This document shows, in pieces, positions 24,276-27,162 of a stretch of 64,000 nt of DNA (position 1 is the stretch's first letter; every line of letters begins with the position of its first letter). The translations under genes were made by a program, and so were the position numbers. Below the pieces are notes generated by a model. That model saw nothing but the letters and a program-made list of their open reading frames with translations, ran no database searches and was not told where the DNA came from. The stretch is from assembly GCF_002729955.1 (NCBI RefSeq), contig NZ_PBYA01000028.1:1-64000 (forward strand). The letters are read 5' to 3'. This stretch comes from Salinisphaera sp. (lineage in GTDB: Bacteria > Pseudomonadota > Gammaproteobacteria > Nevskiales > Salinisphaeraceae).

Positions 24276-25064
24276 CTATGAATGACGTTTGGCGAGCCAG
24301 TCGAGTTCGTTTTCCGAGAACCGGGCTTCGCGCCGGGCCGGAAAGTTGTACGGGCCCGGCGGGCCGCCGTTCATGTATTCGTCGAGCAGCTTTGTGAAGG
24401 TGCTGTCCGGGTCGAGCCCGCGCGGTTCGGCGCAGTAGCGAAACCAGCGGGTGCCGATTTCCACATGCGGCACCTCTTCTTCGAGAATGACTTCCAGGAT
24501 GGCGACGGTTTCATCGTCGCCGGCCTGGCGCAGTTTCTCGATCATGCCCGGCGTGACGTCCAGCCCGCGGGCTTCGAGTACGCGCGGCACGAGCGCCATG
24601 CGAATCATCACGTCGTGGGCGGTCTTCACCGCCATTTCCCACAGGCCGTTGTGGGCATCGAAATCCCCGTAGGTGAAGCCGTAGTCGGCCAACCGGTTGT
24701 TGAGCATCTCGAAGTGGCGTGACTCATCGGCCGCCATGCTCAGCCAGTCGGCATAGAAGGCGGCCGGCATGCCACGAAACCGATAGGCCGCGTCCAACCC
24801 GAGATTGATCGCATTGAATTCGATATGGGCAATCGCGTGGATCAACGCGGCCCGCCCGGCCGGTTTGCCCAGGCCCCGCTTGGCCAGCCGGGCCGGATGC
24901 ACAAGGGCCGGCGCATCCGGGCGCCCCGGCACGACCACCGTCTCTGGCGTACCCCCGGCCTCGGCCAGCGCCGAACTGTCTGCGGCGTGCAGAGCCCGCG
25001 TCGCCGCGCACTTCTGCGCCGGGTCGCACATCATCAGCGCTGCATGGACGTCGTCGATATGCAC
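24276..25064 (-). CDS. DUF455 ferritin-like protein
   Basis: 262 residues. The central helices carry the di-metal ligand pattern of ferritin-like proteins: HIEFNAINL, ADESRHFEML and EEEVPHVEIG. The substrate is unknown; characterised relatives of this fold include tRNA hydroxylases such as MiaE. The start is GTG, only two bases after the metZ stop, with GGGCTGA upstream inside metZ, so translation is probably coupled to metZ and its expression should follow the SAM-responsive leader. Confidence 0.8.
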   Translation of the reverse strand: MHIDDVHAALMMCDPAQKCAATRALHAADSSALAEAGGTPETVVVPGRPDAPALVHPARLAKRGLGKPAGRAALIHAIAHIEFNAINLGLDAAYRFRGMPAAFYADWLSMAADESRHFEMLNNRLADYGFTYGDFDAHNGLWEMAVKTAHDVMIRMALVPRVLEARGLDVTPGMIEKLRQAGDDETVAILEVILEEEVPHVEIGTRWFRYCAEPRGLDPDSTFTKLLDEYMNGGPPGPYNFPARREARFSENELDWLAKRHS

Positions 25065-25066
25065 GC

Positions 25067-26254
25067 TCAGCCCAGACCGCGAGCCAGATCGGCGATGATG
25101 TCTTCGACGTTTTCCAGCCCCACCGAGATACGAATCACCCCTTCCGTGATGCCGGCCCGAGCACGGTCCTCGGCCGAGATGCGGGCATGGGTCGTACTGG
25201 CCGGGTGCACGATGGTGGTACGCGTGTCGCCCAGATTCGCGGTGATCGGGAGCATCCGCGTGGCATTGATCAGCTTGAACGCCGCCTCACGGCCACCGGC
25301 CACCCGCAGCGACAGCACGCTGCCAAAGCCGCCCGGCTGCTGGCGCGCGGCGAGTTCGTGCTGGGCATGCGAGGCCAAGCCCGGGTAATAGACGTGTTCG
25401 ACGCCCGGCTGGGCCACCAGCCATTCGGCGACCTGCTGGGCCGAGCGGCAATGCGCCTGCATGCGCACTTCCAGCGTTTCCAGGGCCTTGTAGAACAGCC
25501 AGGCGTTGAACGGGCTCATGGTGGGCCCGCAGGTGCGCAGAAAGCGAAACACCTTGTCGCCGACGATATCGGCATCGCCGACCACGGCACCGCCCAGGGC
25601 GCGCCCCTGGCCGTCGAGGAATTTCGTAGCCGAATGGGTCACCACATGGGCGCCGAAATCCAGCGGTCGCTGCAGGGCCGGCGTACAGAAACAGTTGTCG
25701 ACCACCAGCAACGCATCGTTATCGTTGGCGATCTCGGCCAGCGCGGCCATATCCACGATTTCGGTCAGCGGATTGGAGGGCGTTTCCACGAACAGCATGC
25801 GCGTGGCGGGCGTGATCGCGGCTTTCCAGGCATCGACGTCTTCCGGCGATACAAAGGTCGTGGTGATACCGAGCTTGCCCAGATAGTTGTTGAACATTCC
25901 GATCGTGGAGCCGAACAGCGTATGCGCGGCCACGATATGGTCGCCGGCTTCGAGGGTGGCCAGACAGATCGCCAGGATCGCCGACATGCCCGAGGCCGTG
26001 GCCACGCAGCATTCGCCGCCTTCCATCGCCGCCAGACGCTTGCAGAACGCATCCACCGTGGGGTTGGTGAACCGCGAATAGATATTGCCCGGCGCGTTGC
26101 CGGCAAAGCGGTCGGCACATTCCTCGGCCGAGTCGAACACGAAGCTCGACGTCATGTAGATCGCGTTGCTGTGCTCGCTTTCGGGCGTGCGATGGGTGCC
26201 TGCACGCACACCGCGTGTGGCCGTACCCCAGCTTTCGTCGAATTCTTCGGTCAT
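25067..26254 (-). CDS. metZ: O-succinylhomoserine sulfhydrylase
   Basis: 395-residue PLP enzyme that makes homocysteine directly from O-succinylhomoserine and sulfide. It belongs to the Cys/Met metabolism PLP family: the cofactor lysine is K211 in HSATKFLDGQGR, and ASGMSAI and DNCFCTPALQ surround the cofactor. The ATG at 26254 has GGAG eight bases upstream; an in-frame start 33 bases earlier lies in the terminator and is rejected. The leader contains a SAM-II-like aptamer and an intrinsic terminator, so high SAM should shut the gene off. A ferritin-like gene follows after two bases. Confidence 0.94.
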   Translation of the reverse strand: MTEEFDESWGTATRGVRAGTHRTPESEHSNAIYMTSSFVFDSAEECADRFAGNAPGNIYSRFTNPTVDAFCKRLAAMEGGECCVATASGMSAILAICLATLEAGDHIVAAHTLFGSTIGMFNNYLGKLGITTTFVSPEDVDAWKAAITPATRMLFVETPSNPLTEIVDMAALAEIANDNDALLVVDNCFCTPALQRPLDFGAHVVTHSATKFLDGQGRALGGAVVGDADIVGDKVFRFLRTCGPTMSPFNAWLFYKALETLEVRMQAHCRSAQQVAEWLVAQPGVEHVYYPGLASHAQHELAARQQPGGFGSVLSLRVAGGREAAFKLINATRMLPITANLGDTRTTIVHPASTTHARISAEDRARAGITEGVIRISVGLENVEDIIADLARGLG

Positions 26255-26285
26255 GGACAATCTCCAGGCAGACGGTTTCGGGCAC

Positions 26286-26316
26286 AAAAAAACCCGCAGT
26301 CGCGATGCGATGCAGG
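26286..26316 (-). terminator. Intrinsic terminator in the metZ leader (riboswitch expression platform)
   Basis: On the minus-strand transcript CCUGCA-UCGC pairs with GCGA-(C)-UGCGGG around an AUC loop, with one bulged C and one G-U pair, followed by seven U residues (26286-26292). It begins 15 bases after the aptamer core and ends 31 bases before the metZ ATG, leaving no room for a promoter in between. Confidence 0.88.
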
Positions 26317-26331
26317 CTTGCAGTCCCCGGA

Positions 26332-26380
26332 CCGTTTAGCGGAATTTATAGGGCGCCCGCAAGCTGTTACAAATCGGCGC
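26332..26380 (-). ncRNA. SAM-II (SAM_alpha) riboswitch upstream of metZ
   Basis: Read on the minus strand, P1 is GCGCC (26380-26376) with GGCGC (26357-26353). The first loop starts GAUUUG (26375-26370) and contains GCUUGC (26364-26359); after P1 comes AUAAA (26349-26345) and then GCUAAA (26340-26335). These are the conserved blocks of the SAM-II motif in the right order and spacing. GCGG (26360-26357) can pair with CCGC (26342-26339) to form the pseudoknot. The gene controlled, metZ, is a methionine-synthesis gene, the usual target. Recognised by motif comparison from memory, not by covariance search. Confidence 0.8.
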
Positions 26381-26386
26381 ATATGC

Positions 26387-26415
26387 AGTATGAAGCCATC
26401 TGTCTACATCGGCAA
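26387..26415 (-). promoter_or_regulatory. Candidate sigma-70 promoter for metZ
   Basis: TTGCCG (26415-26410) and CATACT (26392-26387) are separated by 17 bases; each matches four of six consensus positions. The predicted start of transcription falls at about 26380, exactly where the riboswitch begins. Confidence 0.5.
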
Positions 26416-26427
26416 CCATACCGGCGC

Positions 26428-27162
26428 TTATCCGGCCCCGATTTGCGGATCCTGAATACGCACGTAATAAACCGCCGTTGCTGAAGCGGGATCGTCGTGA
26501 CGGTCTTCTACTTCAACGTAATTCAAGGCATGGACCAATTGTCCAAGCTTCTGGTAGCCATAATTACGCGCGTCGAATGAAGGGTCGTTCTTGTTGATCT
26601 GACTACCGACCGCAGCTAGCGATGCCCAGCCATCATCTTTTGACACCGCGCTTACAGCCGACTCCATCAAGCGACGCAACACCGCATTCTTCGACTCGTC
26701 GGTGATCGCGACCCGGTCTCCGAGGTCTAGAACTTCCGTGTACAGAAATCGATCACAAGCTGAAACAAAAGCTTTCGGTGTCTTCTTTTCACCGAACCCA
26801 TAAACCAACAAGCCGGACTCACGAATTCGGGTCGCTAACCGGGTGAAGTCGCTATCCGATGAAACGAGCACGAATCCATCGAGATGCCCTTGATGCAGCA
26901 AATCCATGGCGTCGATAATCAACGCTGAATCAGTCGCGTTCTTTCCCGTCGTATAGCCAAATTGCTGAATGGGTTGAATTGCGTGTTCGTTGAGTTGTTC
27001 TTTCCAGCCTTTTAAATGTGCGGTAGTCCAGTCGCCGTAGGCACGCTTGACGCTGGCTAATCCGAAAGACGCGACTTCGGCGAGCAACTGGCTACAGCGC
27101 TTAGCCTGCGCGTTATCGGCGTCAATTAGAACAGCCAGTTTGTCGTGTTGGGCTACAGCCAT
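26428..27162 (-). CDS. NYN domain RNase-like protein with C-terminal OST-HTH/LOTUS domain
   Basis: 244 residues. The PIN-like NYN domain (1-140) has the acidic metal-binding set D14 and D16 in LIDADN, D78 in NATDSALIIDA, and D103 and D105 in SSDSDF, so it should be an active nuclease. Residues about 155-240 form an OST-HTH/LOTUS fold (DGWASLAAVGSQI, YGYQKLGQLV), an RNA-binding module. The gene is near 50% GC (two hand-counted lines give 47% and 53%) against about 63% in purF and uses many A/T-ending codons. It is placed between purF and metZ, which are adjacent in P. aeruginosa. The ATG has AGGTG upstream. Substrate unknown. Confidence 0.85.
   Translation of the reverse strand: MAVAQHDKLAVLIDADNAQAKRCSQLLAEVASFGLASVKRAYGDWTTAHLKGWKEQLNEHAIQPIQQFGYTTGKNATDSALIIDAMDLLHQGHLDGFVLVSSDSDFTRLATRIRESGLLVYGFGEKKTPKAFVSACDRFLYTEVLDLGDRVAITDESKNAVLRRLMESAVSAVSKDDGWASLAAVGSQINKNDPSFDARNYGYQKLGQLVHALNYVEVEDRHDDPASATAVYYVRIQDPQIGAG

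Follow-up and report, generated by a model that had tools for sequence, protein, structure and literature searches.

Does the leader of metZ in a Salinisphaera species carry a genuine SAM-II riboswitch, and is such a switch out of place in a gammaproteobacterium? The DNA analysed here, called the window, is a stretch of 64,000 nucleotides from Salinisphaera sp. (assembly GCF_002729955.1, contig NZ_PBYA01000028.1, positions 1 to 64,000). The earlier note on this DNA, made from the letters alone, proposed a SAM-II riboswitch with an intrinsic terminator controlling metZ, and considered its presence in this class unusual and a possible mark of transfer. In previous studies, SAM-II is described as having few occurrences outside the alphaproteobacteria (PMC1273637), as occurring sporadically, perhaps through transfer, in gammaproteobacteria (PMC2258182), as restricted to Rhizobiales and Rhodobacterales in a scan with Rfam profiles (SAM_alpha; Leyn 2014, PMC4239095), and as commonest in alpha-, beta- and gammaproteobacteria (PMC2704228).

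SAM-II aptamer upstream of metZ

The Rfam model SAM_alpha (RF00521) matched the minus strand from 26390 to 26315 over its full length (model positions 1 to 79 of 79) with 34.7 bits and an E-value of 4.7e-6 in a search of 701 bases, or 8.1e-5 when 12 kb were scanned. This was the check that the earlier note had suggested, and it gave a full-length match, but one below the gathering cut-off of 36. Because the element lies 1.3 bits under this score, a default Rfam scan of the whole window was empty. In the complete 3.84-Mb genome the element was the sole credible match to RF00521, and the runner-up reached 13.7 bits (E 3). Model R1, built from eight hairpin-bearing leaders of sister species alone, also recognized the leader (Table 1). 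Two other matches were taken as chance: BjrC68, on the opposite strand, with 16.5 bits against a cut-off of 39, and mir-9461, with 22.7 bits against one of 84.

P1, GAUUUG, CUUGC, an A-rich linker and GCUAAA follow each other in this order on the minus strand, and the blocks and the P1 stem GCGCC/GGCGC agree with the reading in the earlier note. The pseudoknot GCGG/CCGC given there was in the right register but incomplete; the constant pairing is that of UUGC with GC(U)AA, kept in all 54 aligned leaders with letters at these positions. P2b is invariant and therefore offers no covariation evidence. In P1 every cell was paired in the 54 leaders and three of the five pairs changed on both sides, in an alignment that was fitted to the model and leans towards it. 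P2a is short, with two or three possible pairs by eye, and TATAAAT lies in L3. The extra U of GC(U)AA is presumably the ligand contact expected from the SAM-II crystal structure. A triplex of L1 with P2b has been described for SAM-II (PMC5352136).

Table 1. Features of the metZ leader and adjacent genes in the window.
Feature	Position	Strand	Basis or remark
SAM-II aptamer region	26315..26390	-	RF00521 full-model match; R1 60 bits
P1 5' strand GCGCC	26376..26380	-	pairs with 26357-26353
P1 3' strand GGCGC	26353..26357	-	pairs with GCGCC 26380-26376
GAUUUG, start of loop L1	26370..26375	-	third triplex strand in SAM-II
CTTGC block	26359..26363	-	sequence inspection
P2b 5' strand UUGC	26359..26362	-	partner GC(U)AA; no variation among 54 leaders
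P2b 3' strand GC(U)AA, inside GCUAAA (26340-26335)	26336..26340	-	paired in the 54 aligned leaders with letters there
L3 linker CCUAUAAAUUCC, 12 nt, short form	26341..26352	-	hairpin at this place in most sister species
Promoter-like site	26387..26415	-	-35 TTGCCG (26415-26410), 17 nt, -10 CATACT (26392-26387); 8/12 consensus bases
Candidate antiterminator, 5' strand GCUUGCGG	26357..26364	-	overlaps P2b and P1; predicted by folding
Candidate antiterminator, 3' side	26308..26323	-	core CUGCAAGC (26323-26316); outer pairs to UGCA, UCG (26314-26308)
Intrinsic terminator hairpin	26292..26317	-	-14.7 kcal/mol; also listed by pattern scan
U7 tract of terminator	26286..26292	-	sequence inspection
Shine-Dalgarno GGAG of metZ	26262..26265	-	outside aptamer, downstream of terminator
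metZ, O-succinylhomoserine sulfhydrylase	25067..26254	-	NF006003 645.4 bits, cut-off 522
DUF455 gene	24276..25064	-	PF04305 312 bits; 2 nt behind metZ

By its sequence the element is very probably a genuine member of SAM-II. It has P1, GAUUUG in L1, CUUGC, GCUAAA and the P2b pseudoknot in common with the metA element (RF00521, Corbino 2005), as well as a promoter at the aptamer, a terminator and a methionine gene. It differs in its score below the cut-off, its short P2a, its gammaproteobacterial host and its metZ of the NF006003 type. Identity with SAM-V or another SAM riboswitch is highly improbable. SAM-V has the core fold of SAM-II and holds SAM in the same way (PMC6061858), the P2a of the window is short, and the linker hairpin of sister leaders resembles P3, which in SAM-V follows P1. 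However, the window has no P3, its L3 being only 12 nt long, and SAM-V controls translation, whereas the window has a terminator instead of a sequestered ribosome site. The family RF01826, which we take to be SAM-V, gave no match around the element at E<=10, and at this threshold RF00521 was the only Rfam SAM family that matched there.

Promoter, terminator and genes of the locus

The promoter-like site is weak by consensus and stayed below the threshold of the promoter scanner, which did not report it. TTGNNN-17/18-CATA(A/C)T was found 6–8 nt 5' of P1 in 12 of 15 Salinisphaeraceae leaders, including that of the window. The promoter starting at the aptamer that the earlier note had described agrees with this shared layout. 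The terminator hairpin had a z-score of -2.43, with 4 of 200 shuffles equally good. The central claim, that metZ of a gammaproteobacterium is preceded by a SAM-II riboswitch and its intrinsic terminator, is supported by the matches to RF00521 and NF006003 and by this hairpin.

Translation of metZ starts at the ATG at 26254. The next-ranking O-succinylhomoserine sulfhydrylase models gave 543, 450 and 440 bits compared with 645 for NF006003. Among named genomes, MetZ shares 97% identity with its counterpart in UBA6602 and 94% with the one in S. shabanensis. The gap of two bases between metZ and the DUF455 gene noted before is real, and the two genes are probably in the same operon. DUF455 follows metZ in 13 of the 14 loci of the genus, and the remaining locus ends inside metZ. 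A gene with NYN and OST-HTH/LOTUS domains (26428-27162, minus strand) sits between purF and the riboswitch, and S. shabanensis seems to carry one too.

The position of the ribosome binding site bears on a rival explanation, in which the aptamer controls translation by hiding this site upon folding and the hairpin is incidental. Translational control is thought to operate in the best-studied SAM-II RNA, that of metX (PMC6061858, PMC9373788). When the whole leader was folded, the Shine-Dalgarno region came to pair with the 3' half of the aptamer, and 26 of the 113 leaders examined have no U-run. In the window, however, GGAG lies about 70 nt downstream of GCUAAA, past the terminator with its U7, and we consider translational control very unlikely here.

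Proposed control of metZ

We propose, with a probability of roughly 0.9, that the element acts as a SAM-II riboswitch and that premature termination is how it turns metZ off. It very probably senses SAM and stops transcription when SAM is sufficient. Transcription would start at P1 or just 5' of it. When SAM is scarce, the pseudoknot strands would be free for other pairing, and the polymerase would continue through metZ and on into the DUF455 gene. With abundant SAM, the ligand would be bound in the P2b/L1 triplex and clamp UUGC onto GC(U)AA; the hairpin at 26317-26292 would then form, transcription would stop at U7, and less methionine would be made. The aptamer, the layout of the promoter, the terminator, the gene order and the conservation in relatives are observed, and we infer SAM binding and the direction of control from the SAM-II class. 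Orthologous leaders precede metZ in relatives, and a U-run follows the aptamer in 87 of the 113 leaders. In the literature SAM-II is an OFF switch; the 2005 paper (PMC1273637) reports that it binds SAM and that many copies have a putative terminator. For the SAM-II leader of metZ in Sinorhizobium meliloti termination is predicted, and conditions of high SAM raise the level of an RNA about 100 nt long (PMC9373788). This system agrees with the window in gene, aptamer class and predicted terminator mechanism, a likeness judged at that level rather than base by base in the platform, although S. meliloti is an alphaproteobacterium, unlike the host of the window.

In truncated leaders of 75–92 nt, folding predicted pairing of GCUUGCGG with CUGCAAGC. 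From a length of at least 80 nt the outer pairs of this candidate antiterminator extended into the 5' arm of the terminator, and from at least 100 nt P1 and the terminator prevailed. The core of the candidate shares just 2 nt with the terminator, and in the predicted fold at 96 nt the core and most of the terminator were present together, and therefore the two are not strictly exclusive. The complementarity (-16.6 kcal/mol) was not better than in shuffles (p 0.17). In view of both results, the antiterminator of the window is a guess, and the choice of the antiterminator strand in its genus is weakly supported by predicted folding.

The leader could also be a degenerate leftover, with an aptamer-like sequence and a constitutive terminator but no switching. 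A score below the Rfam cut-off and the lack of a well-supported antiterminator in the genus would fit this explanation. However, the core blocks, the promoter spacing and the terminator are kept in relatives with MetZ up to about 20% different, and a metZ gene behind a strong, unregulated terminator would be hard to explain. We consider such a leftover very improbable.

Distribution and target genes

In the order, RF00521 matched 24 of 85 genomes at E<=0.01, 10 of them over the cut-off; two of the 24 (L027 and L031) look false, and L027 was excluded from all counts. The class Gammaproteobacteria in the GTDB usage includes the betaproteobacteria, and in this class 120 of 369 genomes matched at E<=0.001, 30 over the cut-off and the best with 48.5 bits. 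In the phylum, matches were found in 93 of 397 genomes, 76 over the cut-off and the best with 88 bits. Fourteen control genomes were silent in the three scans; at E<=10 all 14 matched, none over the cut-off. From the class scan 90 matches were fetched, and 46 others were not fetched as such. Among the matches listed, all 90 passed a loose count of core blocks, as did 112 of the 113 leaders, L180 having the blocks only in part. After removal of duplicates, 107 of the 113 leaders were unique. SAM-II is, by these sequence matches, common in gamma- and betaproteobacteria, and the standard model misses most copies. The opinion of the earlier note that SAM-II is unusual in a gammaproteobacterium is not supported by these numbers.

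Comparison by tblastn of 150 leaders, which are not independent of each other, placed 106 before a metZ-type gene, 9 before metK, 8 before metX, 6 before metN and 4 before a small unnamed ORF, and left 17 without an assignment. Five of these 17 are followed by ORFs with a start (SFEFFPP or similar) that we take to be metF-like. NCBIfam models confirmed metX, metZ and metK on single examples; for two metN-type proteins MetN was the best model, with scores under its cut-off. NF006003 also fitted the metZ genes tested in three other families, four in all. Ninety leaders had over 400 nt of sequence on their upstream side, and in 60 of these purF is located there.

The presence of the element had been taken as a possible sign of transfer. 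A recent transfer from alphaproteobacteria would concern the origin of the switch and not its mechanism, and earlier authors raised the possibility of transfer for the sporadic gammaproteobacterial copies (PMC2258182). The matches in about a third of the class genomes, the same metZ model in five of five genes tested from four families, and the difference in score between class copies and those elsewhere in the phylum are against it, and recent transfer is unsupported since purF is upstream of so many leaders. On distribution, gene type and gene order we rejected a recent transfer, which appears very improbable.

Some leaders differ from this general picture. In genus g3, which belongs to the same family, the metZ genes of L245 and L246 have no leader recognizable as SAM-II by pattern, perhaps owing to loss in this sister genus. 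A second SAM-II-like aptamer past the first terminator was seen in L122, L131/L264, L142, L146, L148, L251, L252 and L254; a strict pattern found such tandems in 5 of 112 leaders, and the others were found by eye. In family f159 (L338, L339, L345, L355 and L314) an ORF of about 100 aa follows a SAM-II-like leader that contains GAUUUA and has a hairpin in L3; two of these ORFs were tested, and neither matched Pfam or NCBIfam. L314 also matches the Pseudomonas sRNA P11, which suggests Pseudomonas.

A putative antiterminator in relatives

UUUAGC is the complement of GCUAAA. UUU(A/G)GC was found between GCUAAA and the U-run in 56 of 97 U-run leaders, whereas over 300 shuffles this number averaged 1.2 and never exceeded 5. 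The complementarity of GCUAAANNN (nine bases) to the platform was below dinucleotide shuffles, at the 0.05 level, in 49 of the 87 leaders that have a U-run and in 11 of the 26 that have none. The next base of this putative antiterminator covaries: it was paired in 56 of 62 leaders, with a permutation mean of 46.4 and 0 of 10,000 permutations as high, and after collapsing by family in 34 of 36 compared with 31.4 by permutation (p 0.018). C-G replaces G-C in nine leaders (by a looser count) and in two f185 leaders before metK. The covariation at this first antiterminator base rests largely on G-C, and as counter-evidence five to six f4 leaders have an unpaired A against G. Thirty high-scoring loci of the phylum were taken as alphaproteobacterial; 29 have the core and 27 a U-run, and UUU(A/G)GC was in none of these 27, which is a further argument against recent transfer. 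The GCUAAAG/CUUUAGC antiterminator is absent in the window (p 0.605) and in its genus.

A hairpin in L3 of sister leaders

Among 14 Salinisphaera genomes, three including that of the window have a short linker, nine have a hairpin in L3, placed between P1 and the AAAU preceding GCUAAA, and two have a long insert. The extra hairpin is thus found in most metZ leaders of this genus (L033-L035, L037-L039, L236, L237, L239-L244 and L247). In UBA6602 (L233), from the sister species of the window, L3 is interrupted from about position 1145 by roughly 265 nt of inserted sequence that ends in inverted repeats; no copy of it was found in the genome of the window. Rfam SAM families gave no match at E<=1 on the 10 long-form Salinisphaera loci scanned (of 11, L247 being left out), nor at E<=0.1 on 12 long-form leaders outside the genus. 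RF01726 (SAM-II long loops; Weinberg 2010, PMC2864571), in which the published SAM-II structure is extended by longer loops, is recorded from Bacteroidetes and marine sequences, and was among the families without a match on these 10 loci.

R1 matched 124 of 275 class genomes at E<=0.01, an unvetted count with some false matches and rough E-values, and 43 of 319 phylum genomes at E<=0.001, some of them false. Of 16 R1 regions fetched, chosen mainly for length, five (L315, L316, L319, L320 and L322) had no SAM-II core despite E-values down to 2e-5, and the same was true of L353. Each of the seven pairs of the hairpin changed on both sides among the 54 aligned leaders, and 87.8% of cells paired; the whole structure was 94.9% paired compared with 30–50% when slid, in this alignment fitted to the model. 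Folded alone, 29 of 31 long linkers formed a hairpin, L311 and L323 being unfolded. Energies were below shuffles at 0.05 in 22 of the 31, including 16 of 23 outside Salinisphaera, and the nine others included L311 and L323. The hairpin spans ten families, that of Salinisphaera and nine others. According to PMC6061858, P3 at the same place marks SAM-V and is absent from SAM-II.

The metXZ element and RF02424

Two elements of the literature look like the same riboswitch as that of the window. The metXZ element was reported as a new betaproteobacterial element of metX and metZ with unknown ligand, having two interleaved helices (Leyn 2014, PMC4239095). It lies in leaders of metXW and metZ and, like the leader in the window, has interleaved helices and a terminator, a match made by gene and architecture. 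P1 and P2 would correspond to its helices 1-4 and 2-6. R1 found SAM-II leaders before metX in family f106, which is the setting of the metXZ element.

RF02424 (Bp2_287 or Bp2_Cand287) is entered in Rfam as an sRNA, with the opposite strand as its sense; its own authors, who described it as an sRNA candidate, located it near purF, metZ and metX and proposed a cis-acting element of methionine metabolism (PMC3521395). Its reverse strand carries a SAM-II core with an L3 hairpin before metZ. RF02424 matched the metZ leader L334 (1467-1639) with 203.9 bits antisense to the gene, and L335 (1472-1674) with 107.5 bits on the strand opposite to the gene, the cut-off being 70. In the metX leader L333, RF00521 gave 28.5 bits and RF02424 28.7 bits on the other strand, both under their cut-offs. 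In the class, RF02424 matched 43 of 369 genomes, none over the cut-off, and in 29 of 30 loci fetched the opposite strand carried the SAM-II core; L274 was without it by pattern. Two matches among 160 phylum genomes were discarded, as only terminator-like hairpins were seen in both. RF02424 seems to model a SAM-II leader on its wrong strand. The open-access literature searched held no link of metXZ or RF02424 to SAM-II.

Implications

The switch of the window is of a known kind, and the surprise sits in its relatives: the antiterminator, the covarying L3 hairpin and the probable identity of metXZ and RF02424 are new. Considered alone, the window contributes a further SAM-II switch, from a lineage in which the Rfam cut-off hides it. 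We consider it likely that the window is the tip of a widespread gamma- and betaproteobacterial SAM-II branch, mostly missed by the model, with its own antiterminator GCUAAAG/CUUUAGC, unseen in the alphaproteobacterial copies examined, and with an optional P3-like L3 hairpin joining SAM-II to SAM-V. The targets of this branch would be metZ, metX, metK, metN and probably metF, and the metXZ element and RF02424, the latter on the wrong strand, would be this riboswitch, hence with SAM as ligand. The P3-like hairpin blurs the boundary between SAM-II and SAM-V. If metXZ and RF02424 are both SAM-II, the question of the ligand would be testable at once, RF02424 could be moved to the right strand, and the methionine regulons of many gamma- and betaproteobacteria would be redrawn.
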